Made by a program: the position numbers and the translations under genes. This document shows positions 11,946 through 25,460 of a DNA stretch of 41,505 bases, piece by piece (position 1 is the stretch's first letter; every line of letters starts with the position of its first letter). The notes below the pieces were generated by a model. It was not told the DNA's origin. It searched no databases and saw only the letters and a list, made by a program, of their open reading frames with translations. The stretch covers positions 1-41,505 of the forward strand of contig CADACU010000012.1 of the NCBI GenBank assembly GCA_902786545.1. Direction: 5' to 3'. This DNA is from an uncultured Anaerovibrio sp. (GTDB taxonomy: Bacteria > Bacillota > Negativicutes > Selenomonadales > Selenomonadaceae).

Positions 11946-12005
11946 ACTGTAAAATGAAACAAGGATATGCAAACAAACACATAAATTAACCTAATTTCAC
12001 ATCAT

Positions 12006-12087: not shown

Positions 12088-12148
12088 CCTCCATCACCAG
12101 TCTGTTAAACATTCTGATGACTTCTTCGGAATAATGTAAACAATGGTA

Positions 12149-12177
12149 ACTATACTATACTTTTTTGTTCGTGTCAA
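12149..12177 (-). promoter_or_regulatory. Sigma-A promoter of the riboswitch-symporter transcript
   Basis: On the minus strand TTGACA (12172-12177), 17-base spacer, TATAGT (12149-12154). It sits about 60 bases upstream of the glycine aptamer. Confidence 0.85.
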
Positions 12178-12388
12178 CAGTATATTTGTGTTTTTATGTA
12201 ATTATTTTAATAATATTTTTCAAAACAATTAAAATACTTAGGAATTTATGCACTTAACAATTGTTTCATATAGCAACAATATATTACTCCATACTTCTGA
12301 CAAACAGGAAAACACTTCGATTATCCAGGGAATAGTCCTCCGCCTCCGCCTTCGCCAACTCCAGCTTTACCTCCCGAAACTCACCTTG
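12176..12388 (-). repeat. Left flanking direct repeat of the island (copy of GGDEF gene 3' end)
   Basis: Diverged copy of 25257-25460. The first 45 bases (starting AACAGTATATTTGTGTTTTT) are nearly identical, and the rest aligns with several differences and small indels. It comprises the tail of the GGDEF reading frame plus its downstream spacer. Confidence 0.85.
12284..12388 (-). pseudogene. 3' remnant of a GGDEF-protein gene
   Basis: The minus strand encodes GEFREVKLELAK, then AEAEDYSLDNRSVFLFVRS and a TAA stop. This aligns with the C-terminal 33 residues of the intact GGDEF protein at 25365 (GEFRKVQLELAR, EYSPDNRIVFLFVRCID) with a two-residue insertion. A stop codon occurs three codons upstream of the homology and there is no start, so it is a displaced gene end. 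It marks the left border of the island. Confidence 0.85.
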
Positions 12389-12393
12389 GTCTT

Positions 12394-13745
12394 ATGTCAA
12401 CTTCTTAATATACTGCATTATAAGTAATCTCTACATTGGCTGGCCACCACTACTATTGCTCGTAATTTGTCACCCATGGCATCATCCAAAACACCAGTCC
12501 ACATAATATTTGCCTCAGGATGAACATAGCTTTCAATATTCATAACAGTCTCGTTAAGTTCAAGTAAATTTAATTGTGGTGCATCACCGATAAAATGAAC
12601 AATAATTCCCTTGGCTTCGCTTAATGGTACTTCTATAAGCGGTGAATTTATAGCCTCACGGAAAGCCTTCAATGGTGCATTGCTCCCAGTAGCTTCACCA
12701 ATACCCACATATGCAAATTTATTATCGCCGATTACCATCGTAATATCCTCGAAGTCCGCTCCTACAAAACTATGACCATGGCCAATATCACAAATACTTT
12801 GGACACCATGACGAATAATATTATCTATCTCCTTAAATTTGTCAGTAAGGGAAGTTGACTTATCAAGATTGTCAATTATTTTTTCACTTGGGATGACAAG
12901 AATTGAATCTACACTGTTACGTAAATCATTAATGCCATTTCTGGCTCGTTCAACTCGTTCAGCTCCTTCACAAGAAAAAGGACATATTACTACCCCAACA
13001 GTAAAAGCACCAATCTTCTTAGAACACTTTGCAACTACTGGTGCCGCACCGGCACCAGTAGCTCCTCCCATACCAGCAACTACAATTACCATATTGGCTT
13101 CCTTAAGTGCGCATAAGATTTCTTCACAGTGCTCATCAGCTGTAGCACATTCCTCAGTATTACTGCCAAGTGTTATGTGTCTTGAGACCAATGACATTGA
13201 TGGGGCAAAATCTACCGAAATAAATTCAACATCTTTTATGCCTGCATTAATCATATAATTTACAGCATTTATTCCACCGCCACCTACACCGACCACTTTA
13301 AATCTAGGCATTATAGAAAAATCACAAATATTCCACTTTTTAGACAACTTTAATCACCACACACATTAAAAATAGATAATAATAAACATAAAAAATGGTT
13401 TACATATACATCTAAAATAAAAAAACACACAGCCAATAATTATCATATAACTACGATTATTACTTCGATTTAATACCTCATAATTCCTGCCACATACAAA
13501 ATAAGTAGAAAGAAAGCAGGTGCCATTTCAATTGTACTATCACACAAACCCAATGGCTGTTTTAGGCTTTTTATATATCTTCTCGACATTTACAGAAAAA
13601 TCATCTGCCGTAAGAGAAGTTAAATCCTTGCGGCTTAACCTTTTGCCATTGGATTCTTTTATAAGTCTATCTGACTGCTTCATCATTGCCTGTTCCAAAA
13701 GATTTCTGGCAAAACGCCCATTGCCAAATTCCGATTGTCCGCAGG
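12394..13745 (-). repeat. Intra-island duplication, copy 1 (CbbX-like 3' end + FtsZ-like gene)
   Basis: Homologous to 17030-18356: the last about 70 codons of the CbbX-like gene, the intergenic DNA and the whole FtsZ-like gene. The copies share the string GGATTCTTTTATAAGTCTAT and the spacer ACCTCATAATTCCTGCCACA. Confidence 0.9.
12418..13347 (-). CDS. FtsZ-like protein 1, core GTPase only
   Basis: A divergent FtsZ/tubulin-superfamily protein of 309 residues, clearly shorter than a housekeeping FtsZ (about 350-400). The nucleotide loop VVGVGGGGINAVN is at about 18-30. The glycine box reads GGATGAG (94-100) instead of GGGTGTG. The T3 segment is about ten residues shorter and lacks the TRGLGAGA-type sequence, and the T7 loop is GADFED (196-201) instead of NxDFAD, keeping both acidic residues. 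The protein stops at the end of the second domain (AIVVVASQCRDYL), without linker or the C-terminal peptide that binds FtsA/SepF. TTG 13347 has GGTGAT six bases upstream; ATG 13311 matches the start of its paralog at 17058. It follows the CbbX-like gene. Polymer formation or interference with host FtsZ is possible but unproven. Confidence 0.85.
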   Translation of the reverse strand: MSKKWNICDFSIMPRFKVVGVGGGGINAVNYMINAGIKDVEFISVDFAPSMSLVSRHITLGSNTEECATADEHCEEILCALKEANMVIVVAGMGGATGAGAAPVVAKCSKKIGAFTVGVVICPFSCEGAERVERARNGINDLRNSVDSILVIPSEKIIDNLDKSTSLTDKFKEIDNIIRHGVQSICDIGHGHSFVGADFEDITMVIGDNKFAYVGIGEATGSNAPLKAFREAINSPLIEVPLSEAKGIIVHFIGDAPQLNLLELNETVMNIESYVHPEANIMWTGVLDDAMGDKLRAIVVVASQCRDYL

Positions 13746-15591
13746 CACATTTGAAGATATCCAGACACTTTTCACGCACCTCATCGTCAATTACATACCC
13801 CTTATTTTTTACCATAAGCTCAAGAATTTGAAGCATCTCCTCAGCATTATAGTCAGGAAAATCAAGATGAAAGGCAATACGGCTCCGCAAGCCCTCATTT
13901 CCTGCCAAAAATTCCTCCATCTTTTCCGGATAACCGGCAAAAATCACAATAACACTATCCCGTCTGTTCTCCATCTCCTGCACAATAGTATTGATCGCCT
14001 CCGCCCCAAAGGAATTTGTATCATCCACCAAAGCATAGGCTTCATCAATGAATAATATGCCTCCCACGGCTTCACGGAATTTTTCCTGTACGATTTGAGC
14101 TGTCCAGCCCACATATTTGCCTACCAGATCAGCCCGGCCACATTCCACAAAATGTCCAGTTTCCAGCACTCCTTCCTGTTTTAATATTTCCGCCATAAGG
14201 CGGGCAACTGTGGTTTTGGCACTACCCGGATTACCGGTAAAAAGCATGTGCTGGGATACATTGTAGTTATCCAGCCCCAGTTTGCTTCTGGTCTGTCTAA
14301 TTTTGGCAGTATTAATAATTTGGTCCACCAACGCCTTTATATTCACAAGCCCCACCATATTCTTAAGTTCTTCATAAGGCTTGTTGCCTTTCTTCTTTTC
14401 TTTGATAGCAACCTTTTCAACTGCCTTATATGCTTTGTAAGCCTTGCTTTTCAGCCCATTACTAAACCATTTATTATAGGTTTTATATACTTCAGTTGCC
14501 GTAAAGGTCTTAGTTTGGGATGGCAATGCCCTTTCCAATTCTTCCCGAGATGCCTTGAATTGTGATTTTGTTGTAAGCTTTTCCAAGTAATTGACCGCCT
14601 GTTCCTTATCTCCCCGTCCTTCGCAGATTTCTATCAAGTGTATGTCTTCCTGGACAGACGCAATAAGACCTTTGCTAAACCCAAGATTTTCAGAAATCTG
14701 CACCAAAAAGCAAAGTGTATAAAGCTGGTTATCCATCACTGACTTTGCAATAAAATCCACTACCTCCCGATAAGCCGAAGCATACACTCCATGATCTTCA
14801 TCAGTACCACTCATATCAATAGCCAAAGCCGAGCCTCTGCCCGTTTTAAACATTTGCTGAAATTCTTCATCATCATAGCAGTGCTCACTAATGTTATTAA
14901 CATAGCTCACCCGTCCGCCCAGAAGCCGCTTATTTGCCTTCAATGCAAAAACAAGAAGGCTAATAATATCATTGGCAGCCTGTACTGTACCAGCTTTAAT
15001 AACATAATGCACGGGATTACCATAATATTTCTTTTCATTCTGGCGGGAATAAATTCTGTCAATCTCCTCCAACAGACTTTGATCAGCCATAATTTCATAA
15101 GCAAGGCTTTTAATTTTTCTTTTTGTGATGTTCTCCTGCCGATATACATGCTCCTGAACATGAAACCGTCTGTTCTCAAAGTAATCAAGCCCCAGCTTAT
15201 TTACTATATTCCAGCCACTATAAAAGTTCTTGTCATTTGCCTTATCAAGAAGTTTATTAAATTCTTTTACTGAAATCTCGTGAATATTATCCACTACCAC
15301 CTTTTTAACGGCATAGTTATCCAAAAAGTGATTCTTAAGCCACTTTTCACAGTCCTTTAAAGTAATTTTTTCCAAATTGCAGGCCCAAACTATATCCCAG
15401 CGTCCGTATTCACCACTAACAACGGCAACACTCAGGTTGTCATCCAGGCCGCAGCAAAACCCAAGATCATCGTTAACATCATTAATAATGCGGACAATTT
15501 TTTTATCATCAATTTCCGGATTCAAGGTTTCCTTATCATTCCTTCCACACTGTAGGGACTCATATGTCAATTCAGCTCTGTAAATAATCAT
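13540..15591 (-). CDS. CbbX/SpoVK-like AAA+ ATPase with large novel N-terminus
   Basis: A 683-residue protein. The C-terminal 250 residues form a CbbX/CfxQ-type AAA+ module: VGLVNIKALVDQII, Walker A GNPGSAKTT (about 453-461), the GRADLVGKYVGWTA pore-loop region, Walker B ILFIDEAYALVDD, sensor VIFAGYPEKMEEFL and arginine-finger region NEGLRSRIAFH. Such AAA+ proteins are ring-forming remodelling enzymes acting on protein partners. The N-terminal about 420 residues match no family I know; they include a region with SALAIDMSGTDEDHG and a Lys-rich linker before the ATPase. Start ATG 15591 has GGAGG eight bases upstream. It heads a transcription unit with FtsZ-like protein 1, so remodelling of that protein is an attractive inference. 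Confidence 0.86.
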   Translation of the reverse strand: MIIYRAELTYESLQCGRNDKETLNPEIDDKKIVRIINDVNDDLGFCCGLDDNLSVAVVSGEYGRWDIVWACNLEKITLKDCEKWLKNHFLDNYAVKKVVVDNIHEISVKEFNKLLDKANDKNFYSGWNIVNKLGLDYFENRRFHVQEHVYRQENITKRKIKSLAYEIMADQSLLEEIDRIYSRQNEKKYYGNPVHYVIKAGTVQAANDIISLLVFALKANKRLLGGRVSYVNNISEHCYDDEEFQQMFKTGRGSALAIDMSGTDEDHGVYASAYREVVDFIAKSVMDNQLYTLCFLVQISENLGFSKGLIASVQEDIHLIEICEGRGDKEQAVNYLEKLTTKSQFKASREELERALPSQTKTFTATEVYKTYNKWFSNGLKSKAYKAYKAVEKVAIKEKKKGNKPYEELKNMVGLVNIKALVDQIINTAKIRQTRSKLGLDNYNVSQHMLFTGNPGSAKTTVARLMAEILKQEGVLETGHFVECGRADLVGKYVGWTAQIVQEKFREAVGGILFIDEAYALVDDTNSFGAEAINTIVQEMENRRDSVIVIFAGYPEKMEEFLAGNEGLRSRIAFHLDFPDYNAEEMLQILELMVKNKGYVIDDEVREKCLDIFKCACGQSEFGNGRFARNLLEQAMMKQSDRLIKESNGKRLSRKDLTSLTADDFSVNVEKIYKKPKTAIGFV

Positions 15592-15750
15592 GTTGCCCGC
15601 CTCCATTTTTAGTAGCCATATTTTTAAAATATCATCTGTTTCTTTTATATGTATTCTACAATATGCAATGTTCAATTATTTGTACATTAAATAACTTGAT
15701 TAACATCACATATCCATATTACCCGCCTCCAATTTTTTATTTCGTTTGAA

Positions 15751-15788
15751 TATACCATATCAAAGTCAATGTACATTCAATTGTACAT
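15751..15788 (-). promoter_or_regulatory. Island promoter/operator module 1 (CbbX-like unit)
   Basis: The 20-bp site ATGTACATTCAATTGTACAT at 15769-15788 holds two TGTACA cores 12 bp apart. On the minus strand it is followed by TTGACTTTGATATGGTATA. The same module starts three other units (19182, 23297, 25038). The -35/-10 assignment is unclear, suggesting an activator or unusual sigma factor. Confidence 0.7.
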
Positions 15789-15827
15789 AAAAATACTCCC
15801 AGATGATTATCTCTAATCACCTGGGAG
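15789..15827 (-). terminator. Intrinsic terminator fused to operator module 1
   Basis: CTCCCAG-GTGATTA / TAATCA-CTGGGAG stem (15796-15827) followed on the minus strand by TATTTTTAT, which runs straight into the operator. It ends the 16051-19124 unit. Confidence 0.8.
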
Positions 15828-15903
15828 CTATATGTTGACTACTTAATCCTCTTACTTGCCGTAATAAAATGCTTTAACCTTATCCTCTATTTTGTCCCTG
15901 ATA

Positions 15904-16050
15904 AATTAGAACCTGACCTGCTGATTTTCCCATAAAATTCTTCTACCATGAGTGACCACCTCTATAAATCAAGCATCTCATTTAATGATACCAAACCAAC
16001 TGGGAGTTCTAATCTTGTTAAAAGATAACAACTAAAGCCGTAGCCTTATC
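15904..16050 (-). other. Non-coding remnant with inverted-repeat ends
   Basis: ATTAGAAC (near 15905) and GTTCTAAT (near 16006-16013) bracket about 95 bases with no gene. This segment abuts the truncated 3' tail of the nuclease-like gene, so it may be the scar of the event that broke it. Not identified further. Confidence 0.35.
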
Positions 16051-16980
16051 CTATTTATTTTTTTGTAAAAATTCAACACACTCTTCTGGTGTAAGCATCA
16101 GACTGTCATATAGACAATATCCCATAAGAGAAGCCCTTGCAAATTTTATATCAAAATCATACTCTGATGATTTAATTTTCGCAATTTCCTCACATAATTT
16201 GCTCTTTGCTGGCTTATGATTACCAATCAAAAATACGACTTCTATTCGCCTATCACTTAAATTACTAACCTCATGAGGTTTGTCTTTCATATCTGGTATC
16301 AAACCCAATTTACATTTTTGCTTAAAAATCTCCGCAACATCATCGCAAAAAAATGACATCTCATTACTTTTAATAAAATCTCTCATATCCCTCAGATGAT
16401 CTCCGATACCTGAATTTCCAGTTAAAGCATTATCACCATATTTCATTTCAATAATTGACAGAACAGGAACTTTAGATGCATTATGCTCTCTTCTATCGAT
16501 TCCAGTTGAACGCCACTTTATAGAAATCATATCAAATCTAGATGTTTTGGTACCATCGTCATCCATATACTCTATATCGGTTATATAATAGTCACTATCA
16601 TGTGAAATGTCGTGATGACGATTATTTTCACGAACCACAACCTGCTGGAATTCACGCTCATAAGCATGTTTTTCACTCATTTTATAATCAATATACCGCT
16701 TATAAGTCGGAATTTCATTTATTATATTAACATAATTACCTACTTGTAATTCATTAAAAGTTTCAGCTTTTAACGCTTCTGGCATATAAGCTGTATCAAA
16801 AACCACTTTATCTTCGTAAATATCGCATATTTTACCACCACGATAATAAATAATTGCATGACTTTCACCACGAAATTCTAAATCTAAAGTGTCATCTTTT
16901 TTTACTTCTTCCAGCAAAGGCTTTAAATCGCCGTCCAAAAATGATTTAAACATTTTTTCCCCTAGTGCTCTCTTATTCAT
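16051..16980 (-). CDS. PD-(D/E)XK-like protein, unknown function
   Basis: A 309-residue protein. The middle part has the pattern of a PD-(D/E)XK nuclease fold: TSRFDMISIKW (Asp), about 25 residues later PVLSIIEMKYGDNALTG (the ExK pair within IIEMKYG), then GIGDHLRDM as a following helix. The C-terminal part RRIEVVFLIGNHKP is a further predicted strand. The N-terminal region (FRGESHAIIYYRGGKICDIY) may be a separate small domain. The start ATG 16980 is chosen because GAGGGGAG lies eight bases upstream. It follows FtsZ-like 2 in the same unit. Nuclease activity is inferred only from motif spacing; the protein resembles uncharacterised proteins of gut Firmicutes. Confidence 0.65.
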   Translation of the reverse strand: MNKRALGEKMFKSFLDGDLKPLLEEVKKDDTLDLEFRGESHAIIYYRGGKICDIYEDKVVFDTAYMPEALKAETFNELQVGNYVNIINEIPTYKRYIDYKMSEKHAYEREFQQVVVRENNRHHDISHDSDYYITDIEYMDDDGTKTSRFDMISIKWRSTGIDRREHNASKVPVLSIIEMKYGDNALTGNSGIGDHLRDMRDFIKSNEMSFFCDDVAEIFKQKCKLGLIPDMKDKPHEVSNLSDRRIEVVFLIGNHKPAKSKLCEEIAKIKSSEYDFDIKFARASLMGYCLYDSLMLTPEECVEFLQKNK

Positions 16981-17057
16981 AATTAGTACTCCCCTCAAAT
17001 ATTTTACATTCATATTCCAGAATCAATAACCTTATATTAACTTCTTAATATACTTCA

Positions 17058-17954
17058 TTATTCGTAATCTCTACACTGGCTAGTTGCCACTACTATTGCT
17101 CGTACTTTGTCACCCATGGCATCATCCAAAACACCAGTCCACATAATATTTGCTTCAGGATGAACATAGTTTCCAATATTCATAACAGTCTCGTTAAGTT
17201 CAAGTAAATTAAATTGTGATGCATCACCAATAAAATGGACAATAATTCCCTTGGCTTCGCATAATTGTTCTTCTATAAACGGCGAATTTATAGCCTCACC
17301 GAACGCCGTCAGGGGAGCATTATTCCCAGCAGCTTCACCAATACCCACATATGCAAATTTATTATTGCCTATTACCGCCTTAATCATATCTAAGTCCGCT
17401 CCTACAAAACTATAACCATTGCCAATATCACAAATACTTTGGACACCATGACGAATAATATCATCTATCTCCTTAAATTTGTCTATAAGGGAAGTCGATT
17501 TATCAAGATTGTTAAATAATTTTTCACTTGGGATGACAAGAATTGAATCTACAACGTTACGCAAATCATTAATGCCATTTTTGGCTCGTTCAGCTCGTTC
17601 ATCTCCTTCACACAAAAAAGGATATATTACTACCCCAAAAGTAAAAGCACCAATCTTTTTGGAACACTTTGCAACTACTTGTGCCGCACTGGTACCAGTA
17701 GTTCCGCCTATACCAGCAACTATAATTACCATATCGGCGTCCTTAAGTGCGCATAAGATTTCTTCACCGTGCTCATCTGCTGCTTTGGCACATTCCTCAG
17801 TATTACTGCCAAGTGTTATGTGTTTTGAAGCCAAAGATGTTGATGGGGCAAAATCTATCGAAATAAATTCAACATCTTTTATTCCTGCATTAATCATAGA
17901 ATTTACAGCATTTATCCCGCCGCCACCTACACCGACCACTTTAAATCTAGCCAT
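17058..17954 (-). CDS. FtsZ-like protein 2, core GTPase only
   Basis: A 298-residue paralog of the FtsZ-like protein at 12418, very similar throughout. The nucleotide loop VVGVGGGGINAVN is intact. The glycine box is GGTTGTS (83-89) rather than GGGTGTG, and the T7 loop is GADLDM, so the second catalytic-type acid of NxDFAD is replaced and shifted. It likewise lacks the TRGLGAGA segment of T3 and the whole C-terminal tail. The differing substitutions at GTPase positions suggest that the copies have diverged in function, for instance one active and one poisoning subunit. ATG 17954 has GGGGGAA eight bases upstream. The gene follows a CbbX 3' remnant and precedes the PD-(D/E)XK-like gene. Confidence 0.85.
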   Translation of the reverse strand: MARFKVVGVGGGGINAVNSMINAGIKDVEFISIDFAPSTSLASKHITLGSNTEECAKAADEHGEEILCALKDADMVIIVAGIGGTTGTSAAQVVAKCSKKIGAFTFGVVIYPFLCEGDERAERAKNGINDLRNVVDSILVIPSEKLFNNLDKSTSLIDKFKEIDDIIRHGVQSICDIGNGYSFVGADLDMIKAVIGNNKFAYVGIGEAAGNNAPLTAFGEAINSPFIEEQLCEAKGIIVHFIGDASQFNLLELNETVMNIGNYVHPEANIMWTGVLDDAMGDKVRAIVVATSQCRDYE

Positions 17955-18144
17955 TTAAAATTCCCCCAATATTAAAAATAGATAAGAATAAACATAAAAA
18001 ATTGTTTACCTCTAAGTCTAAATAAAACAAACACACAACCAATGATTATCTCATAAGTACGATGATTACTTCGATTTAATACCTCATAATTCCTGCCACA
18101 TACATAATAAGCAGAATGAAAGCAGCGCCCTTTTAATCGTACTA

Positions 18145-18356
18145 TCACACAAACCCAATGGCTGTTTTAGACTTTTTATATATCTTCTCGGCATTTACCG
18201 AAAAATCATCTGCCGTAAGAGAAGTTAAATCCTTGCGACTTAACTTTTTGCCATTGGATTCTTTTATAAGTCTATCTGACTGCTTCATCATGGCCTGCTC
18301 CAAAAGGTTTCTAGCAAAGCGGCCATTGCCAAAGTCAGACTTAGTACAGGCAATTT
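18145..18356 (-). pseudogene. 3' remnant of the CbbX-like AAA+ gene
   Basis: Encodes SDFGNGRFARNLLEQAMMKQ and the rest of the C-terminal tail, ending in KSKTAIGFV, nearly identical to the last about 70 residues of the protein at 13540. The AAA+ core is gone; the sequence joins the 3' end of the UvrD-like gene in another frame. An ATG at 18399 (inside the UvrD-like gene) could start an 84-residue peptide through this tail, so expression as a small protein cannot be excluded. Confidence 0.85.
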
Positions 18357-18362
18357 TGAATA

Positions 18363-19124
18363 CTAGATAACCTGATCTACATTTCTTACAGTAAAACATC
18401 TTTTTTCACCTGCCAGCAGTTTGATTAACTGATACTGGAGCTTGTTGATAATCTCATGCTCATCCACCAAGATATAACGAAACAGTTGCTGATAACGTGT
18501 TCTGATTTCTTCATGATCTCTTATTAGTGATATTGTTATCAGCAGCAAATCATCAAAATCCAAGGCATTGCTTTCTTGTAGTTTGCTTTGATATAGCGAA
18601 TAAATCTCAGAAATCTTTTTGTGGTGAAAATTACCGTTATTATTGGCATACTGTGAAAATTCCATAGGCCCCATCATCTTCATTTTGATATTGGAAATGG
18701 CCCTCCAAACACCAATAGGAGTATTGCATTCATCGTTTAACTTCATTTGTTTAATGCATTTCTTTACCAATGAATTTATATCGTTGTCATCATATATAAC
18801 AAAATTTTTGCGATATATTCCGGTCGCTTCAATCTCCCGACGCAAAATACGGGCACAAAGGCTATGAAAAGTACATGCCCACAAATCCTTTGAGTTGATG
18901 CCAAACATTTTGGCGATTGAATCTCGCACTTCCACAATTGCTCTGTTGACAGATGGTATAAACAAAATATTTTCTGGAGCTACACCATTAGCTAACAGTT
19001 TAGTCACCTGATTAGTAAGCACTTTGTTATTGCCATAATCATCATCTGCCATTATCAGAAGTGAATCTTCATAGGGCAGTATTGCCTCTCTCTTGGTCGA
19101 AGTTAATTCCATAAAATCATCCAT
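18363..19124 (-). CDS. UvrD/PcrA-like N-terminal half with erased ATPase motifs
   Basis: A 253-residue protein aligning with domains 1A/1B of UvrD/PcrA/Rep helicases: LTSTKREAILPYEDSLLIMA, TFHSLCARILRREIEATGI, the 1B-type stretch FVIYDDNDINSLVKKCIKQM and SNALDFDDLLLITI. Key ATPase elements are degraded. The Walker A position reads ADDDYGNNK instead of GAGSGKT, motif II reads VDEHEIIN instead of VDEYQDTN, and the protein ends inside motif III (VRNVDQVI where VGDDDQSIY is expected). It cannot be a working helicase. ATG 19124 has GGAGG eight bases upstream and lies behind an island operator module, so it appears to be expressed. It may be a decaying gene or a deliberate non-catalytic mimic. Confidence 0.75.
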   Translation of the reverse strand: MDDFMELTSTKREAILPYEDSLLIMADDDYGNNKVLTNQVTKLLANGVAPENILFIPSVNRAIVEVRDSIAKMFGINSKDLWACTFHSLCARILRREIEATGIYRKNFVIYDDNDINSLVKKCIKQMKLNDECNTPIGVWRAISNIKMKMMGPMEFSQYANNNGNFHHKKISEIYSLYQSKLQESNALDFDDLLLITISLIRDHEEIRTRYQQLFRYILVDEHEIINKLQYQLIKLLAGEKRCFTVRNVDQVI

Positions 19125-19163
19125 ATTATTCGCCTCCAGAATCATTTTTTTACTTTGTTTGAA

Positions 19164-19201
19164 TATACTATATCAAGGTCAATGTACACCCTGTTGTACA
19201 T
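19164..19201 (-). promoter_or_regulatory. Island promoter/operator module 2 (UvrD-like unit)
   Basis: The 20-bp site ATGTACACCCTGTTGTACAT at 19182-19201 has TGTACA cores 12 bp apart, then on the minus strand TTGACCTTGATATAGTATA. Same architecture as the module at 15769. Confidence 0.7.
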
Positions 19202-19240
19202 AAAAATACTCCCAGATGATTATCTCTAATCATCTGGGAG
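19202..19240 (-). terminator. Intrinsic terminator fused to operator module 2
   Basis: CTCCCAGATGATTA / TAATCATCTGGGAG stem (19209-19240) with TATTTTTA on the minus strand running into the operator. It ends the long unit 19265-23245. Confidence 0.82.
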
Positions 19241-19264
19241 CTATATGTTGACTACTTAATCCTC

Positions 19265-20347
19265 TTACTTGCCGTAATAAAATGCTTTAACCTTATCCTC
19301 TATTTTGTCCCTGATTGTAGAATAACAAAGTAAATCCTTTACTATTTCAAAGTTCTTCGGTAAATTTTCTATCGCAGCAATGATCTTGGCAAGTTCTTGA
19401 TATTTTTCTCTATATATTTCAAGACATGTCTTACCAGAGCTCAATTTCAACTCGCCAATCTTACTATCAAATACAATTTCTCCAAGCATAACCACAGATT
19501 TTTCCTTTTCAATCTCAGATTCTACTTTTTCTTGAACCTTTTCGTTCCTGTACGCATCTTTTTCGGTATACTTTTCTGATGCAAGCAAATTCCTTATTCC
19601 ACAATAGTGTGAAATCATCTGCTTTATTCCAGCAATATAGAAAGGTTCATTAGGGTCTTTTGTCACCAAATCAAACTTAGCAGGATCCTTTTTAGAATCT
19701 TCTATTTTTAATTCTAAAGCATCTATATTATTTTTATACAGCGCTTGCGTATATTCATTATCCAAATAATTTTTCGATATCCCCCTACAAGTTGTTCCTG
19801 CACTCAGATAATATTCAGCAAATTTACTTTCCAAAAATAGTACCACATTTTCATAGCTTTTCTCATTTTTACCAATAAGCACCACATCCATATTAGATGG
19901 ATATCTTGGATCTATAACGGGGCTTTTAAATTCAAATATTGAATCAGTAAACTTGATTTCCCTACCATTTATTGCCATTGTAAGTGGATTATCCTCGGTA
20001 ACATTATAAAAATGAAGGAGCGCACATAAAGAGGATGAGTGCAATGTGGTGATTCTACTTTCTTCCTGACCATCACCTGCAATCGCCATCTTATATTTTT
20101 TTAAAAATTGATTCTCATCTCCGATTTGGAACTGGTTAATAAGAATCTTATCAGGTTCCCCAATTCCTCTTAATCTATATGAACTTGCAGGTTTATACTT
20201 TTCATCTGTATTGTCCTGTGAGGCAGAATCACCCGTTTTTTCAATACTAAATCCGTCTACTTCCCCCCACATTGATTTATAAAGTTTTCTTTTCCGTGCA
20301 TTATTCATTTTGTCAAAGTCAACTTTTCTCCCCTCATAATCTTTCAC
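19265..20347 (-). CDS. PD-(D/E)XK nuclease-like hypothetical protein
   Basis: A 360-residue protein. The motif set RITTLHSSSLCALLHFY (a conserved helix), FTDSIFEFKSPVI, RYPSNMDVVLIGKNE and NVVLFLESKFAEYYLS fits a PD-(D/E)XK core, with Asp in SNMDVVLIG and the ExK pair in LESK. Later parts are helical and include FYIAGIKQMISHYCGI and a Lys/Glu-rich stretch (EKVQEKVESEIEKEK). I prefer GTG 20347, because GGAGGG lies seven bases upstream; ATG 20362 has no RBS. It is last in the unit that begins with the PolC-like peptide, and its 3' end is duplicated at 15842-15904. I know of similar uncharacterised proteins in gut anaerobes; a nuclease role in defence or element maintenance is inference. Confidence 0.68.
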   Translation of the reverse strand: MKDYEGRKVDFDKMNNARKRKLYKSMWGEVDGFSIEKTGDSASQDNTDEKYKPASSYRLRGIGEPDKILINQFQIGDENQFLKKYKMAIAGDGQEESRITTLHSSSLCALLHFYNVTEDNPLTMAINGREIKFTDSIFEFKSPVIDPRYPSNMDVVLIGKNEKSYENVVLFLESKFAEYYLSAGTTCRGISKNYLDNEYTQALYKNNIDALELKIEDSKKDPAKFDLVTKDPNEPFYIAGIKQMISHYCGIRNLLASEKYTEKDAYRNEKVQEKVESEIEKEKSVVMLGEIVFDSKIGELKLSSGKTCLEIYREKYQELAKIIAAIENLPKNFEIVKDLLCYSTIRDKIEDKVKAFYYGK

Positions 20348-20427
20348 AGTTAATCCCTCCATTTCATAAATTCTTCATCTCTTATAGAAGAAGATTACAT
20401 AAATCATCAAGAAGAAAATTATAACTT

Positions 20428-20646
20428 TCATGGATCATAGCCCCACTTCTTTAATTCTTCAATATCTAATGCTAAAAACTCCTCTAAAGTGTCAGCATCA
20501 AGTAGATCTATAATCTCATCTGACAACAACCCACTCTCTCTACAAACTAACTTAGCCATGACCTCATCAGTTAACTCATGAATAGGAAAGTAATGATGCT
20601 TAATGTATTTCTTCCAAATTGCTATTTGCCGACTTCTATTATTCAT
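20428..20646 (-). CDS. Small tandem-paralog protein (copy 4 of 4)
   Basis: A protein of about 72 residues of an unrecognised family repeated in tandem here. Shared signature: RQIAIWKKYIKHHYFPIHEL, then TDEVMAKLV, a variable centre (CRESGLLSDEIIDLL) and DADTLEEFLALDIEELKKWG with a YDP end. Predicted mainly helical, basic in the first third and acidic in the last. The start ATG 20646 aligns with the other copies; an upstream in-frame ATG (20673) would add nine residues. It lies between a broken copy and the nuclease-like gene. It could be an adaptor or inhibitor; no family helps. Confidence 0.72.
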   Translation of the reverse strand: MNNRSRQIAIWKKYIKHHYFPIHELTDEVMAKLVCRESGLLSDEIIDLLDADTLEEFLALDIEELKKWGYDP

Positions 20647-20673
20647 AGTTTCCACACTGCCCCTCATAAGCAT

Positions 20674-20790
20674 TCATGGTTCATAGCCCCACTTCATCAA
20701 TTCCTCATCACTTAATTCCCAAAACTCCTCTAAGGTATCTGCATCTAACTGATAAAGAACTTCTTCCATAATGCTATTTGTCTAGCTCTC
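20674..20790 (-). pseudogene. Small tandem-paralog gene, internally deleted (copy 3 of 4)
   Basis: The 5' end (RARQIA codons) and 3' half (MEEVLYQLDADTLEEF, then EELMKWGYEP) of the family are present, but the middle is missing and the frames do not join. The junction lies at TGGAAGAAG, a string present in intact copy 1 both at the WKK codons and at the MEE codons about 90 bases later. The deletion therefore arose by recombination between these short repeats. A 31-codon frame from the internal ATG remains but has no RBS. Confidence 0.8.
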
Positions 20791-21013
20791 AGTCCCATGG
20801 ACGATAACCCCACTTCTTTAATTCTTCATCACTTAATTCCAAAAACTCCTCTAAGGTATCTGCATCCATCATCTCTACTATATCAGTATAGATTAACCCA
20901 TTCTCCTTACAAATCACCTTAGACATAACTTCGTCAGTCAACTCGTGAATAGGGAAATAATGGTGTTTAATATACTTCTTCCAAATTGCTATCTGCCTAG
21001 CTCTTACATTCAC
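20789..21013 (-). CDS. Small tandem-paralog protein (copy 2 of 4)
   Basis: A 74-residue member of the same family: RARQIAIWKKYIKHHYFPIH, ELTDEVMSKVICKENGL, then a variable IYTDIVEMM and DADTLEEFLELSDEELKKWG with a YRPWD end. I use GTG 21013, which overlaps the stop codon of copy 1 (GTGA) and gives an N-terminus (MNVRARQ) matching the other copies. This indicates translational coupling. The central segment between the conserved halves differs from copy to copy, as expected if it carries specificity. Function unknown. Confidence 0.75.
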   Translation of the reverse strand: MNVRARQIAIWKKYIKHHYFPIHELTDEVMSKVICKENGLIYTDIVEMMDADTLEEFLELSDEELKKWGYRPWD

Positions 21014-21228
21014 GGCTGATAACCCCATTTCATTAACTCTTCATTACTTAATTCCAAAAACTCCTCTAAGGTATCAGCATCTAACTGATAAAGAACTTCT
21101 TCCATAATTACTCCTTCTTCGCTGTCAATAAGTTTAGACATAACCTCATCAGTCAATTCATGAATAGGAAAGTAATGCCGTTTAATATACTTCTTCCAAA
21201 TTAATTTTTGTCTTATTCTGTTATTCAT
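21010..21228 (-). CDS. Small tandem-paralog protein (copy 1 of 4)
   Basis: A 72-residue member and the first of the array: RIRQKLIWKKYIKRHYFPIH, ELTDEVMSKLIDSEEGV, IMEEVLYQL, DADTLEEFLELSNEELMKWG with a YQP end. Its ATG overlaps the last eight bases of the DnaA-like gene, and its own stop overlaps the start of copy 2, so it is translated as part of the operon. I do not recognise the family. Confidence 0.75.
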   Translation of the reverse strand: MNNRIRQKLIWKKYIKRHYFPIHELTDEVMSKLIDSEEGVIMEEVLYQLDADTLEEFLELSNEELMKWGYQP

Positions 21229-22120
21229 TTTTTACTGTACCTTTTAAAGCCTCAGTGGCTAAATCAACGGTAATCTTATTTCCCGTCAGTTCAGCGTATG
21301 CTACCACTTTTGCCAAACCGCCTTCCAGTTCCCCAATGTTGCTGGTGATATTCTGAGCAATATAATCCAACACCTCTGCCGCTATCTCGGTGTGCTCCGC
21401 ATCACATACCTTCTGCAACAAGGCAATTCGATCTTCCAATGCTGGGGCTTTTATATCGACAACCATACCAGCCGCCATCCTTGAAATGATTTTTTCATCA
21501 AAGCCCTCTATCGCCCTTGGAGGACAATCACAAGACACAACTATTTGCTTATTTAATCTTTGAAGTTCATCTAAAGTATTAAAAAATTCTTCCAGGGAGC
21601 CTACTCTTCTTCTCAAAGTCTGAATATCATCCATTAGCAGAAGGTCAACAGTTCTGTATTTCTTTTCAAAAGCCTCAGTAGCATTGTCACGAATGGAATT
21701 AATAAGCTCTCTGGAGAAATTTTCAGCTGTGGTATACAGTACTTTCTTTTCAGGATGGCCTTTCAGTACCTCATTACCTATTGCCTGTAATAAATGAGTT
21801 TTACCCATTCCAAAATTGCCATATATAAACAGAGGATTAAGTTTATCACCAGGTTTTTTAGCCACCTTTAATGCTGCACCATAAGCCACATGATTAAAGC
21901 CTCTGTCCACCATCGATTCAAAGGTATATTTTGAATTAAGAGGCAAGCCACAATTACCAGTTTTATGATTGATCAAATCGATTTTACCTGCATCGTTAAT
22001 GCCAATGGTGATCTCTATTTCCAATTGTGCATCTTCACTGGCATTTTTCAAAACATCCACATATTTCCTTAAATCAATCTTGATTTTCTCTCTACCAATT
22101 ACATTCTTAATGTCACTCAT
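21221..22120 (-). CDS. DnaA-like AAA+ protein without DNA-binding domain
   Basis: A 299-residue protein whose residues about 62-295 align with domain III of the replication initiator DnaA: LNSKYTFESMVDRGFNHVAY, Walker A GNFGMGKTH (101-109), RELINSIRDNATEAFEKKYR, Walker B LLLMDDIQ (160-167), an Arg-finger-like ISRMAAGMV, and NIGELEGGLAKVVAY in the lid. DnaA domain IV, the helix-turn-helix that binds DnaA boxes, is absent, and the first 60 residues are not domain I or II. The ATPase motifs look intact, so it could bind ATP and pack against DnaA, as the DnaA-related regulator Hda does. Start ATG 22120 has GGAGGTG seven bases upstream. It lies between FtsZ-like 3 and the small-protein array. Confidence 0.85.
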   Translation of the reverse strand: MSDIKNVIGREKIKIDLRKYVDVLKNASEDAQLEIEITIGINDAGKIDLINHKTGNCGLPLNSKYTFESMVDRGFNHVAYGAALKVAKKPGDKLNPLFIYGNFGMGKTHLLQAIGNEVLKGHPEKKVLYTTAENFSRELINSIRDNATEAFEKKYRTVDLLLMDDIQTLRRRVGSLEEFFNTLDELQRLNKQIVVSCDCPPRAIEGFDEKIISRMAAGMVVDIKAPALEDRIALLQKVCDAEHTEIAAEVLDYIAQNITSNIGELEGGLAKVVAYAELTGNKITVDLATEALKGTVKNE

Positions 22121-22199
22121 TTTAAGCACCTCCGATTTTTACTATATGTTTATATTATTCCATGATAAATGGCAAATCCCTTTTAACAAGGATATGGAT

Positions 22200-23075
22200 T
22201 TATTCTAAAAAATAGCTATCATCCAAAAAAAGGCCAAACATTTTTATCTTGCCCTCAAATGGTTCATCCATGTGTAAAACAGCAACTATGTAATAGTCTA
22301 CACCGAGCTCACAACCTGGAATATCATTTTTCCCGCCCAGATCGTATTCCAAATCCGGTACTGGCTTATCAAAATTATTATCGCCATAAAAAAATGATAC
22401 TACTGCATGGATATCCTGCAGAAACGATTTTCTCTGATTATTGGCCACCAAATTTATCATTGCCGGATATCCTGTATTACTACGGTTCAAGCCTGCGGAA
22501 TGAAGGAATTTATCAACTACAGATTCCAATTCTGTACCTATAGCAAAGGCTGGTCTTATCTTACGAGGCGCGCATAGCACATCTTCAATGTCTCGCAAAT
22601 CAACAGCTGTTAAACCGACTCTACATACAGGATCTGTTATTCCTAAAATTGTTTCCTTAACTACATCTACTCCGTCCCTAAACAAATCTGGCTGAAATTT
22701 GTACTGAAAATCTAGATCATCCTGTGTCATGCACATTAATCTGCCTGGTGGTGTAAAATCTTTTATAAAGATTCCATTTTTTTCTATCACCAGTACGGAA
22801 ACCGATAAGATTTTTCTCTCCCACACATATTCAGCAATGTCATAAACAACTTTACTAGGGAAATTTTCCCTCATGTCAGCCACAACAAAGACCATGTCGC
22901 TATCTTCGGCCACTGAATAAATGCTCGACTGCTGCTCAGCTATGGCTGTGGAGCTTAGCTCTTTCTGAAAAACAATGGAACACAAAGCAAAATGTGAATC
23001 TCCAATTTTCTTCAGTCTATTTACTACACTGTTGCCAAATTCACCTATACCTATCACTGATACCTTTGAAACCAT
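22200..23075 (-). CDS. Highly divergent FtsZ-superfamily protein 3, glycine box lost
   Basis: A 291-residue protein recognisable as FtsZ-like by its fold pattern. N-terminal KVSVIGIGEFGNSVVNRLKK matches the FtsZ first strand and nucleotide loop (GIGEFG for GIGGGG). SDMVFVVADM matches the strand before the glycine box, SVSVLVIEKN the next strand, and AVDLRDIEDVLCAPRKIRPAFAIGTE the T7-loop helix and following strand. The glycine box itself is replaced (RENFPSK where GGGTGTG is expected) and the usual C-terminal tail is absent, so GTP binding is doubtful. It may be a non-polymerising partner or cap. ATG 23075 lies ten bases after GGAGG; an ATG at 23084 is too close. It follows the PolC-like peptide gene. 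Confidence 0.7.
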   Translation of the reverse strand: MVSKVSVIGIGEFGNSVVNRLKKIGDSHFALCSIVFQKELSSTAIAEQQSSIYSVAEDSDMVFVVADMRENFPSKVVYDIAEYVWERKILSVSVLVIEKNGIFIKDFTPPGRLMCMTQDDLDFQYKFQPDLFRDGVDVVKETILGITDPVCRVGLTAVDLRDIEDVLCAPRKIRPAFAIGTELESVVDKFLHSAGLNRSNTGYPAMINLVANNQRKSFLQDIHAVVSFFYGDNNFDKPVPDLEYDLGGKNDIPGCELGVDYYIVAVLHMDEPFEGKIKMFGLFLDDSYFLE

Positions 23076-23083
23076 TGTCGTCA

Positions 23084-23245
23084 TGCCTCCAATATAAAAT
23101 CCTTCTTCTTAAATCTGTAATCAATCAAGGATAATTCTTCCTCGATTCTTTTGTGCACTATTTCTGGCAATTCAATTCCATACAATTCATGAGCCCGTTC
23201 TAAACATTCTTTTTCCAGTACTTCGCGATAATTCTTCCACATAAT
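23084..23245 (-). CDS. 53-residue PolC-like peptide
   Basis: A small gene with a strong RBS (GGAGG nine bases before the ATG at about 23245) that opens the longest island unit. Its central sequence ECLERAHELYGIELPEIVHK, then RIEEELSLI, resembles the segment of Gram-positive DNA polymerase PolC just before its catalytic palm, where an ELYG-xLPEIV-xxRLExEL pattern occurs. The protein ends soon after (YRFKKKDFILEA) with no polymerase motif. The stop codon overlaps the RBS region of the FtsZ-like gene, so translation is coupled. A captured polymerase fragment that could contact PolC partners is my reading; chance similarity of a short helix is the alternative. Confidence 0.65.
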
Positions 23246-23278
23246 ATATGGCCTCCTTCGCAGTATAGTTTATTTAGT

Positions 23279-23316
23279 TATACTATATCAAAGACGATGT
23301 ACATTTCATTGTACAT
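23279..23316 (-). promoter_or_regulatory. Island promoter/operator module 3 (PolC-like/FtsZ-like 3/DnaA-like unit)
   Basis: The 20-bp site ATGTACATTTCATTGTACAT at 23297-23316 has TGTACA cores 12 bp apart. On the minus strand CTTTGATATAGTATAAC follows. It sits about 50 bases upstream of the PolC-like start. Confidence 0.7.
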
Positions 23317-23350
23317 AAAAACTCCTAAACAATATTTTATTATTTAGGAG
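23313..23350 (-). terminator. Intrinsic terminator fused to operator module 3
   Basis: CTCCTAAA (23322-23329) / TTTAGGAG (23343-23350) with an AT-rich upper stem, followed on the minus strand by TTTTTATG of the operator. It ends the HD/hypothetical unit. Confidence 0.8.
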
Positions 23351-23418
23351 TCTAATTCTTTGCCACATAATATTATCCTGCAATATTTTTTAATCTTTTA
23401 TCTATGTATTTAATTCTA

Positions 23419-24279
23419 TTAGATATTCCTCAGATTGTTATAATATTTTCGAAATTCACGTCTACGGATTTTATTTGCCCTTTTTTGCTTCCAAGTCATT
23501 TTAGGTAAATTATTGAGCCCGGCAAGTTCCAAGCCTTCATCCGTATACCATTTAGGTATCCAGTACTCTCCGTAGTCACGCATCATCAAAGTTCTTTGTG
23601 ACTGTAACAACAGTTCAAATTCAAGTTTTCCCTGTACAAAGTTGCTTATGGCAATCAGTATCCTTTCTTGTCCGTATAACTCCCCCTTATATTTCACCAA
23701 ATCCATGTAATTAAACATTACTTCTTGATATACAGTTCCATCTTCATCCTGAAACCATCCATAGGCATTCATATCTGATGCATCACCATGAACACATCTC
23801 TTAATATCCTCCTCACCATTTGTAATGCCATCAAGTACAAAAACGCCAGCACAAAGGTCGTGTTTGTGGGGTTTTTCACAAAATCGATATACCAAGTCCC
23901 CTTTCTTGAATGGGGTTGGAAAGCAATACCAACGGCTTTCAAAAGCATATCTGTACACATCCCTCTCAACAGCACTTAATTGTTCCAGACACGGATCCTG
24001 AGCAAGTTGAGACAGTTGAAGCTCATGCTTCTCACAAAAATCCATATGTTCCCTCAAAAAATCATGAAGACTATCCCTGTTAATTGAAAATTGTCTTTCT
24101 GGCATAGGACAATCAGGCATATTATCAATAATCCAGCGATAAGCCGTGTGCTTTTCTTCCATTGTCTTATTTGCACTTTGGTACACCAGCCATGCTGCTT
24201 GCATGGTATCACATTTATAATCGATTTCGTGCAAATAATCTCTTATGTCTTTGGAATTGACGAAAGATAAAATATCCAT
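23419..24279 (-). CDS. Hypothetical protein of a family common in Clostridia
   Basis: A 286-residue soluble protein starting MDILSFVNSKDIRDYLHEID. I recognise the N-terminal pattern (LSF-NSKDIRDYL, AAWLVYQS, TMEEKHTAYRWIIDNMPDCPMPER) as that of an uncharacterised family widespread in Lachnospiraceae and relatives, with no known function. The middle holds KKGDLVYRF and GVFVLDGI. The C-terminus is very basic (TWKQKRANKIRRREFRKYYNNL), suggesting nucleic-acid contact. RBS AAAGGAGA precedes the ATG. It follows the HD-domain gene without its own operator module, so the two are probably co-transcribed. Confidence 0.7.
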   Translation of the reverse strand: MDILSFVNSKDIRDYLHEIDYKCDTMQAAWLVYQSANKTMEEKHTAYRWIIDNMPDCPMPERQFSINRDSLHDFLREHMDFCEKHELQLSQLAQDPCLEQLSAVERDVYRYAFESRWYCFPTPFKKGDLVYRFCEKPHKHDLCAGVFVLDGITNGEEDIKRCVHGDASDMNAYGWFQDEDGTVYQEVMFNYMDLVKYKGELYGQERILIAISNFVQGKLEFELLLQSQRTLMMRDYGEYWIPKWYTDEGLELAGLNNLPKMTWKQKRANKIRRREFRKYYNNLRNI

Positions 24280-24388
24280 CTTTTGTCTCCTTTGCTTTTC
24301 ACACGCTTTTATATTTATCCATATTATGAGATAAATTCATAAACTGATATTCTGCTTCTATTTGCTTCAGTTGGGAGCATAAGAGTAT

Positions 24389-24970
24389 TCAAAATTTTTC
24401 CTCCAGTACAAAACCACTCCATGTATCTGCATACTGCAACAGTAAGGTAAGTGGTGTTTCATTGGTAGCTACACTTCGATTATCCTCCACATACTGCCCA
24501 TCATGGTAGACAATGGCCTGTACCTCTTCCTCGGTCAGTGGAAATCTTTGGGCTACCAGATACAGACTACGCACAGGAACACTCAAATAAGTAAGGTTAC
24601 CGTTCCAGTAATACGGGTACCTAAATTGACTGTCTGGTGGATTTTTGATATAGAGAGGATTTCCTGGCATTCCGGCTTTACCTAAATCATGCATAAGTGC
24701 CACTATCACGCAGCTTTCATCGGAAATTTTTGGTGCAATGGCTGCCTTTATTTTAAGCATGGTTTCCGCCACATTGATGCTATGCTCCAATAAACCCTGT
24801 TCACAGTTAAGATGATATTTGGTAGACGCAGGAGTGGTAAGATATACAGTCTCTTTTTCTACAAATTCCATCAATTCATCAAACTGCTCCCGGCGTTCTA
24901 CCACCTTATCTTTCAAAACTTTAAGGCGTTTCATCAGCTCTGCTGTCCTTATATCCTTCTGATCTGTCAT
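24389..24970 (-). CDS. HD-domain phosphohydrolase-like protein
   Basis: A 193-residue protein with an HD-type metal site: first His in GLLEHSINVAETMLKI, the His-Asp pair in VALMHDLGKAGMPG, a further His in AIVYHDGQYVEDN and a distal Asp in LTLLLQYADTW. HD proteins hydrolyse phosphoester bonds in nucleotides or cyclic (di)nucleotides; the substrate is not evident. A helical segment (RLKVLKDKVVERREQFDELMEFVEK) precedes the domain. RBS GGAGGTG is close to the ATG. The gene follows island operator module 4 and is the first island gene on the GGDEF side. A role in nucleotide signalling within the island is inference. Confidence 0.82.
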   Translation of the reverse strand: MTDQKDIRTAELMKRLKVLKDKVVERREQFDELMEFVEKETVYLTTPASTKYHLNCEQGLLEHSINVAETMLKIKAAIAPKISDESCVIVALMHDLGKAGMPGNPLYIKNPPDSQFRYPYYWNGNLTYLSVPVRSLYLVAQRFPLTEEEVQAIVYHDGQYVEDNRSVATNETPLTLLLQYADTWSGFVLEEKF

Positions 24971-25015
24971 TTTATTGCACCTCCGTAATGCATTTCTAAC
25001 AAAATTATCTATCTT

Positions 25016-25057
25016 TAGTCATAATATATCAAAATCAATGTACATTATAATGCACAT
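25016..25057 (-). promoter_or_regulatory. Island promoter/operator module 4 (HD unit)
   Basis: The site ATGTACATTATAATGCACAT at 25038-25057 is the fourth member, with one half changed to TGCACA. On the minus strand TTGATTTTGATATATTATGAC follows. Confidence 0.65.
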
Positions 25058-25090
25058 AAAAAACTCCCAGAGCATTCAAATGCCTGAGAG
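25058..25090 (-). terminator. Intrinsic terminator-like hairpin fused to operator module 4
   Basis: CTCTCAGGCATT / AATGCTCTGGGAG imperfect stem, then TTTTTTATG on the minus strand. Between here and 25256 no gene is seen; the DNA is AT-rich. Confidence 0.75.
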
Positions 25091-25256
25091 CTTCTTTTTG
25101 GTAATTCTTTCTTAGTATATAAAACTTTTCTATATATAACAAAATCTGCCATAATCCAGTTATAACATCAAACACAAAAGCGACAAAAACAACTGCGATA
25201 ATAGTAAGTTTGACCGCATTTATTTACAAGGCTCTCAAATAAACTGCATAATTTTG

Positions 25257-25460
25257 AACAGTATATTTGTGTTTTTATGTAATTTTTTTAATAATATTTT
25301 AAAAAACCATTAAATTAGTTAAGAATTGATATACTAATTGATTGTTTCATATATCTGCCAGCTATCAATCGATGCATCTGACAAACAGAAAAACAATACG
25401 GTTGTCCGGGGAATATTCCTGCGCCCTGGCCAACTCCAGCTGCACCTTTCTAAATTCCCC
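25257..25460 (-). repeat. Right flanking direct repeat of the island (native GGDEF 3' end and spacer)
   Basis: Partner of 12176-12388. It includes the last 33 codons of the intact GGDEF gene and about 105 bases of downstream spacer. The spacer part starting AACAGTATATTTGTGTTTTT is the best conserved. Confidence 0.85.

Follow-up and report, generated by a model that had tools for sequence, protein, structure and literature searches.

The island and its genes

We analysed the first 41.5 kb (41,505 nucleotides, here called the window) of contig C12 (CADACU010000012.1; 54.3 kb) from the genome of an uncultured Anaerovibrio species of the Selenomonadaceae (2.23 Mb in 105 contigs, 91.7% complete), which carries an island of altered relatives of replication and division proteins. 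In this island, at 12395-25256, every gene lies on the minus strand (12418-24970), and cut-down relatives of FtsZ, DnaA, PolC and UvrD, termed look-alikes below, stand among them, as a preliminary description of this DNA had claimed. The genes form four apparent transcription units in series (A to D), each with one palindromic operator-like site ahead of it.

Unit A encodes an HD-domain protein (24389-24970; 193 amino acids (aa); Pfam HD), which retains its His-Asp residues and is 92-94% identical in five other genomes of the genus, and a 286-aa protein (23419-24279) whose family was not matched (best Pfam E 0.17) and which has a counterpart of 78% identity in a Schwartzia genome (G035, locus L191). 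Unit B begins with PolC53 (23081-23242), a 53-aa peptide assigned to the start of the PolC palm by profile match and alignment; AAGGAGG, resembling a ribosome-binding site, lies upstream of it, and its stop codon overlaps the start of the next gene (ATGA), encoding FtsZ3 (22200-23084; 294 aa), a divergent FtsZ-like protein recognised by profile comparison. A DnaA AAA+ core (21221-22129; Pfam and alignment) follows, and then three copies of a small-protein gene of repeat family D1, encoding 72 aa (21010-21228; 89% identity in G013), 79 aa (20789-21028) and 81 aa (20428-20673), with a partial fourth copy (20671-20772; repeat family D3), so that the small-protein array described earlier is indeed present. 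Pfam gave no confident family for the small proteins (best E 0.0026, below the cut-off), and a search with one of the copies in PADLOC, NCBIfam and PHROGs gave no match. The last gene of unit B encodes a putative PD-(D/E)xK nuclease of 365 aa (19265-20362); a homologue shares its D159 and E178-S-K180, and the profile of the 365-aa protein matches a family with the same motif from other islands (probability 91.4, E 9e-7).

Unit C opens with the N-terminal half of a PcrA/UvrD protein (18363-19145; 260 aa), overlapped at its 3' end by a fragment encoding the C-terminal part of CbbX (18145-18399; Pfam; repeat family D4), and continues with FtsZ2 (17058-17954) and a 320-aa protein (16051-17013), a possible nuclease by a D...EMK motif noticed by eye, with no Pfam family above the cut-off. 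The earlier claim of two PD-(D/E)XK-like proteins holds at the level of motifs, kept in a homologue for the 365-aa protein and seen by eye for the 320-aa protein, and finds no Pfam match in either. Unit D encodes a CbbX-like AAA+ protein with a large N-terminal region (13540-15675; 711 aa as the longest frame), the open reading frames of its relatives beginning at codon 24 of this frame, and FtsZ1 (12418-13347). The best-known role of CbbX is the remodelling of inhibited Rubisco. The assignments of the CbbX-like and HD proteins, both made beforehand, were borne out by Pfam and NCBIfam.

The G+C content of the island, measured in successive segments, is 34-40%, lower than the 42-47% of its flanks. 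Two direct repeats of 193 nucleotides (repeat family D6; 78% identity), at 12176-12368 and 25257-25449, frame the island, and the borders given in the preliminary description fall just within both. An intact GGDEF gene has its 3' end within the right copy, and the left copy overlaps the 3' remnant of a second GGDEF gene, recognised by its translation (12284-12391, minus strand), that adjoins a symporter gene. In the genome G012 (L416) the symporter and GGDEF genes are adjacent and the island is absent; elsewhere the symporter gene has, by eye, phage-like (G015, L413) or transposon-like (G008, L414) neighbours. This sodium/alanine(glycine)-type symporter gene, which borders the island, is preceded by a glycine riboswitch (11998-12092, minus strand). 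No integrase or phage structural gene was found with Pfam and PHROGs among the scanned window proteins. Units C and D have repeats of 87-94% identity in common (D2, D4, D7-D9), suggesting that the two units are unequal products of a single duplication. A 416-aa gene with a weak match to PDDEXK_4, complete in G004 (L039 16848-18098), has left in the window, by eye, a remnant of its start at 15887-15949 (minus strand), an instance of gene turnover between units C and D. The duplication, the flanking repeats, the 286-aa gene, the four operator-like copies and the two strong hairpins reported below are additions to the preliminary description.

Operator-like sites and linkage across genomes

The operator-like site reads TGTRCA-N6-TGTACAT, followed by TTTGATAT with small changes. 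Its four copies, detected by pattern and weight matrix on the minus strand, lie ahead of unit A (25025-25056; TGTGCA-N6-TGTACAT), unit B (23284-23315), unit C (19169-19200) and unit D (15756-15787), and with at most two mismatches the site occurs solely at these four places in the whole genome. A terminator scan detected hairpins of 15 pairs with a T-rich tail before units C and D (19208-19241 and 15795-15828, minus strand); inspection by eye showed others ahead of units A and B, the one at unit A being short and missed by the scan. A longer site pattern, allowing at most three mismatches, was found in 9 of 200 relatives, comprising 6 of the 16 genomes of the genus (the window's included) and three others of the family. 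One of these three, G089 (L041), has WYL, CbbX and HD genes adjacent; the matches in G038 and G061 have no island genes around them (L042, L043) and were set aside as probably due to chance.

A weight matrix built from nine sites was then applied to 24 stretches of the genus (408 kb). It gave 43 matches of at least 16 bits in 15 stretches, against a background of 0.05 matches per 41.5 kb in 20 mononucleotide shuffles of the window. The 43 include the nine training sites, two further sites with a sequence identical to one of these, and a few cases in which a single site was counted in both readings. Sites precede the WYL gene in G006 (37.7 bits), G015 (28.9 bits) and, weakly, G001 (18.7 bits), as autoregulation would predict, and the scanned WYL proteins of relatives contain WYL and WCX domains. 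Sites also lie upstream of full-length island PolC genes (21-23 bits), a DnaA core (31.4 bits) and a PDDEXK_4 gene (17.9 bits), and at 22.9 bits before a DnaB-like gene with a 170-aa frame in between; genes for HD, CbbX, FtsH-like, VWA-like and pentapeptide proteins are further nearest genes downstream. This distribution suggests that the island genes probably form one co-regulated set (regulon) across the genus.

Among 120 genomes searched, 16 from the family and one from another family encode an HD protein of at least 64% identity, and ten more have a match of at most 34%. The HD survey of the named collection comprised 79 loci, drawn from the best 80 of 88 confirmed stretches. At least one look-alike (a PolC, DnaE, DnaA, DnaB, FtsZ or FtsH relative) was present in 19 of the 30 HD loci assigned to Selenomonadaceae and, at the sensitivity used, in none of the 49 elsewhere; some loci come from one genome, and the reference set was taken from Selenomonadaceae, so distant look-alikes in other taxa may escape. 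WYL genes accompany 24/30 of the family HD loci versus 13/49 of the others, and CbbX genes 12/30 versus 3/49. The count of 19 excludes DnaE above 900 aa, a second DnaE piece in L213, DnaA of at least 440 aa and UvrD above 500 aa. Accordingly, the long DnaE beside islands in L213, L215 and L272, with the small piece in L213, were left out as possible housekeeping genes, as was a 500-aa DnaA in L218, which stands beside a DnaN-like gene and by eye looks like a real origin locus.

Individual families gave a similar picture. Among the matches listed, 9 of 11 extra C-family polymerases lie in loci with WYL, HD or CbbX genes, the other two being in L198 and in L210, phage-like by eye. In 27 family genomes, all four extra DnaA above 100 bits are in islands (G000, G010, G013 and, with two AAA+ copies in one frame, G012), and the six extra DnaB above 100 bits comprise three truncated forms in islands and three longer ones elsewhere (frames of 456-677 aa). 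Nuclease-like genes stand near look-alikes in L036 and L222 (PDDEXK_4), in L124 (Mrr_cat) and in the window (the 365- and 320-aa proteins). Gene content otherwise differs greatly between close relatives.

A phage origin was considered and rejected: four viral contigs contain the HD protein, at 68-72% identity in two of them and 38-49% in the other two, and dead PolC palms were found in none. Two contigs of the viral collection (L393, L394) hold HD and WYL genes near genes that look recombinase-like by eye, one of them with FtsH-like and QatA-like genes, and are a possible carrier element. ADP-ribosylglycohydrolase genes were also seen in WYL loci (L036 and, by similarity, L106, L246 and L385), together with PARG (L246) and macro (L038) genes, the assignments in L106 and L387 being made partly by eye; such genes recur as if to reverse ADP-ribosylation.

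State, selection and origin of the look-alikes

FtsZ1 and FtsZ2 match Pfam Tubulin and FtsZ_C; they are 309 and 298 aa long, compared with 386 aa in a host FtsZ, and lack the C-terminal tail; their T7 loops read GADFED and GADLDM versus NLDFAD in the host. FtsZ3 has no Pfam FtsZ match, a weak one to NCBIfam ftsZ (E 0.0016, below the cut-off) and 24-29% identity to its relatives. Its family profile matches an FtsZ profile with an hhalign probability of 96.7 (E 4e-10) and chains of solved FtsZ structures with E values down to 3.9e-8, and in this way all three proteins described earlier as tail-less members of the FtsZ superfamily were recovered. The FtsZ3 family lacks the glycine-rich GTP-binding signature; other extra FtsZ forms retain the T7 motif. 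Assignment of FtsZ1 to TubZ/PhuZ was rejected on scores (NCBIfam ftsZ 229 bits versus PHROG PhuZ 18 bits), and a housekeeping role for the window forms on the altered T7 loop, the absent tail and, in FtsZ3, the absent signature. FtsZ-like and PolC-like genes are adjacent in the window and in L122, L123, L124, L224 and L199, covering three genera by the survey labels. As a marker of WYL islands, extra FtsZ genes were discarded as not clean, many of them adjoining other genes. Those in L192, L194, L205 and L193 adjoin genes for a dynamin-family protein (L194, Pfam) or, by eye, radical-SAM or VWA proteins, perhaps as a separate conflict system. Most family genomes surveyed hold two FtsZ genes of roughly normal length.

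PolC53 alone matches DNA_pol3_alpha weakly (E 0.004; 17.2 bits versus a cut-off of 23.9), and in alignments it lines up with the initial helices of palm-type PolC look-alikes from relatives, in keeping with its first identification as a PolC-like peptide. Besides PolC53, 16 truncated PolC forms were aligned. Their matches start at host residue 366-396 or 660-682 and stop by residue 1228, and their Asp triad is altered or incomplete in nine and kept in four, the other three consisting of a PHP part and an unmatched end. No QxxL[F/L]-type motif was found in the last 60 residues of any of the 16; host PolC ends in QLSLF, and the full-length copies in the islands of G013 and G015 end in QMTLF. Scans of the island PolC copies gave no exonuclease family; this absence was rejected as a sign of truncation because Clostridia and Negativicutes are reported to have PolC that lacks the Exo insertion (PMC3919608). 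In Anaerovibrio lipolyticus, a second full-length PolC frame (L190 2001-5819, and L189; 1272 aa) is 76% identical to the host PolC of G000 and has an operator-like site upstream (23 bits). A 344-aa protein in L232 (5363-6397), which by eye resembles the zinc-binding part of a DnaG primase and has a weak Toprim-like match (E 0.0075, below the cut-off), is possibly a further replisome look-alike.

In all four DnaE halves aligned, the RGS loop is gone and so is the third Asp, and all three DnaB forms are without the N-terminal domain; the Walker Lys is Met in G004, Gly-Lys is lost in G010, and the form of G015 has an intact Walker motif and an internal deletion. The window DnaA (Bac_DnaA, 190 bits) was rightly described as an AAA+ core without the DNA-binding domain; it retains Walker A and B, and its sensor-2 Arg is replaced by Gly. 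A protein of unusual architecture in G012 (L106 5735-7036; 433 aa) has two tandem DnaA AAA+ matches. The UvrD-like half, earlier said to be devoid of ATPase motifs, has a PcrA-like N-terminus in which Walker A was not recognisable by eye. It is 40-54% identical to frames of 614-886 aa in 44 genomes, and no second truncated PcrA/UvrD copy of at least 40% identity was found in these. The FtsH-like proteins were rejected as dead copies, Walker A and HEAGH being intact in the four checked, and may be working enzymes; the count of 19/30 is independent of them.

The ratios of nonsynonymous to synonymous substitution (dN/dS) were calculated by the Nei-Gojobori method, pairs with saturated dS, including all three FtsH-like pairs, giving no value. 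All computable ratios are below 1. The values are 0.04 for HD (the pair with a value), 0.08-0.12 for CbbX, 0.11 for WYL, 0.05 for host PolC and 0.09 for full-length island PolC; 0.20-0.22 for dead PolC palms, 0.14-0.18 for PHP+palm forms, 0.45 for PHP-only forms and 0.22-0.30 for DnaE halves; and 0.24-0.39 for DnaA, 0.34-0.37 for the FtsZ3 family, 0.35 for the 365-aa protein and 0.03-0.26 for the small proteins, the HD protein and one small-protein pair being the most constrained. These ratios indicate that the compared look-alike pairs are under purifying selection and not simply decaying. The preliminary description had named scattered single genes and decay as the outcomes that would speak against it; we found that in several genera the look-alikes are linked with one another and with genes for WYL, HD and CbbX proteins, and that dN/dS is 0.03-0.56.

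In a tree of the PolC palm region (534 columns, LG+G4), the full-length Anaerovibrio copies cluster with Anaerovibrio hosts (inner support 57-73; 100 for the whole group), and 13 truncated palm-bearing forms make up a second clade within the family (support 100), common to Schwartzia, genus g7 and Anaerovibrio, with a weak root (48) and long branches. The two clades indicate that PolC was recruited at least twice, one line being shared between genera. Judged by sequence, most look-alikes are derived from the cell's own proteins, cut to a core, with catalytic residues often lost.

Interpretation and comparison with known systems

We tentatively favour the reading, at somewhat less than even confidence, that the look-alikes serve as decoys or baits in a mobile, inducible conflict island, most likely directed against phages. 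A helix-turn-helix WYL-WCX dimer of the CapW/BrxR kind would keep the units off until a signal of infection or damage, a nucleotide or single-stranded DNA, released them, and the HD hydrolase would, at a guess, clear the signal that the WYL protein binds. The look-alikes would then present core surfaces of PolC, DnaE, DnaB, DnaA, PcrA and FtsZ to phage take-over proteins. With the parts that plug them into the real machines absent, they would do the host little harm: the truncated PolC forms are without the clamp tail and the N-terminal part and DnaB without its N-domain, and in the window DnaA is without its outer domains and FtsZ without its tail. The CbbX-like AAA+ protein might strip or remodel captured complexes, such as those with phage inhibitors, which is again a guess, and the nuclease-like neighbours would be the armed output. 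A bolder proposal, which is possible and on which we place less weight, is a replisome bait immunity in which one regulon would, on infection, release free-standing and largely dead cores that bind phage take-over proteins in the stead of the real enzymes; the AAA+ protein would strip or sense the complexes and the linked nucleases would destroy either the phage or the cell, the baits having been repeatedly bred from host genes and traded between genera; it may be likened to the integrated decoys of plants.

Several observations weigh against the decoy reading. In the survey of HD loci, 11 of the 30 in the family and all 49 outside hold no look-alike, and CbbX is present in just 12 of the 30; other contexts, in which no WYL gene was recognised, hold extra FtsZ-like genes as well. 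Neither is the loss of activity general, nor is the linkage: the full-length island PolC of G013 and G015 retain the Asp triad, four truncated PolC forms (863, 887, 896 and 683 aa) retain the catalytic triad, and the FtsH-like proteins keep Walker A and HEAGH (4/4 checked). As to regulation, a search of the window's own genome (91.7% complete) at E 1e-15 revealed no such WYL gene, 9 of the 24 scanned stretches have no site, some of them carrying WYL genes, the promoter scan is at chance level (55 versus 55.4 in shuffles), and terminators are not enriched (5 observed versus 7.1 in shuffles). Moreover, the dN/dS of 0.56 between FtsZ1 and FtsZ2 of the window points to weak constraint.

Four other explanations were weighed. 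The look-alikes could be a brake on the host, truncated copies that on induction poison its initiator, helicase, polymerase and Z-ring in a dominant-negative manner and bring about dormancy or abortive infection. The DnaA core, with its ATP site and box-VII Arg and no sensor-2 Arg, and the tail-less FtsZ could co-assemble with host proteins, and the common operator-like site suggests joint expression. A poison of the replisome would need connectors, however, and a bait would be safer without them, so the loss of the clamp motif and N-terminal part from truncated PolC and of the N-domain from DnaB, the parts for entering the replisome, favours a bait; the window FtsZ3, at 24-29% identity to its relatives, moreover lacks the GTP-binding signature. 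We rank decoys or baits above the brake, which we regard as unlikely, because the connectors are absent and because of the operator-like sites and the nuclease-like company.

That company, near look-alikes in the window, L036, L222 and L124, and the frequent presence of a CbbX-like AAA+ protein would also suit a guard, in which the look-alikes are sensor baits wired to nuclease and AAA+ protein, and a phage protein that binds is not simply sponged up but sets off a killing nuclease. We think this rather improbable: no bait-nuclease fusion was noticed, the order and partners of the genes shift between loci, and the nuclease assignments in the window are at motif level. More doubtful still is a DNA-damage regulon, in which a WYL activator of the PafBC/DriD kind turns on a spare PolC, a uracil-DNA glycosylase (UDG) and a helicase for replication restart. 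PafBC and DriD are described as WYL proteins responding to single-stranded DNA (PMC11804915, PMC12340889), and the islands hold full-length PolC copies and a UDG-like protein; yet catalytic residues or domains are lost in 12 of 16 truncated PolC forms, the DnaE halves, two of three DnaB forms and the PcrA half of the window, and island content is highly variable among close relatives. A decaying insertion, a functionless graveyard of duplicated host genes, would account for the CbbX fragment, truncated UvrD, GGDEF end remnant and partial small gene of the window and is very improbable in view of the purifying selection, the similar PolC truncation regions across genera, the sites kept ahead of units and the recurrence in several genera.

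If the look-alikes are baits, each would name a host protein attacked or hijacked by phages of rumen Selenomonadaceae, and the islands would amount to a catalogue of phage targets with which unknown phage proteins could be captured, and would offer a testable case for the inactive-enzyme decoy idea of Kaur et al. (2020). If they are brakes, they would be natural dominant-negative inhibitors of PolC, DnaB, DnaA and FtsZ.

The islands resemble several known systems in part. Diverged, unclassified extra Pol III alpha copies, termed DnaEX, were tallied in some Clostridia and Negativicutes by Timinskas et al. (2013; PMC3919608), and extra, strongly diverged C-family polymerases are common to both cases; there, as far as the consulted sections of that paper go, they were set aside before the tree and tied to no islands, regulators or look-alikes. 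The UvrD half matches the RTasHel and GajB models of DRT and Gabija helicases, whereas it comprises the first helicase half only and has its top NCBIfam score with PcrA; neither GajA nor a reverse transcriptase was matched among ten window proteins scanned with PADLOC. An FtsH-like protein in L038 matches models of the anti-phage ATPase IetA and differs in carrying an M41 peptidase part and in sitting in a WYL/HD island.

In their regulation, the islands are similar to defence islands under WYL proteins, namely CapW of CBASS and BrxR of BREX, in the WYL-WCX regulator of relatives, the upstream palindromes and the nuclease-like cargo. CapW is a WYL repressor that binds palindromes of about 20 bp and silences CBASS genes in uninfected cells (PMC9122588). 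A palindrome upstream of regulator and cargo, characteristic of such islands, is present here as TGTRCA-N6-TGTACA, to which WYL binding is putative. In contrast to those islands, one site is common to many scattered units in the genus, the cargo is rich in copies of host proteins, and a WYL gene was not found in the window's genome.

The closest precedent for the decoy idea lies in the vWA-MoxR systems, where Kaur et al. inferred from sequence that inactive enzymes serve as decoys (PMC7159879). A replisome-based set of look-alikes is apparently undescribed, no description of such islands having been found in the open-access literature searched. The ternary vWA-MoxR systems combine a constant NTPase core with highly variable effectors, as in the islands here, and have MinD, FtsK and rare FtsZ/tubulin members (PMC7159879). 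Our islands share with them the cargo of host-enzyme copies that appear inactive and, in relatives, AAA_5 proteins that are MoxR-like by eye (L107, L116 and L121, with homologues in L382 and L383) and a DUF2201 metallopeptidase/VWA-like protein (L107); neither MoxR nor vWA genes were found among 16 scanned window proteins. Unlike in vWA-MoxR systems, the look-alikes here are free-standing replisome proteins, and the recurring parts around them are the operator-like site, the WYL and HD proteins and, often, CbbX.

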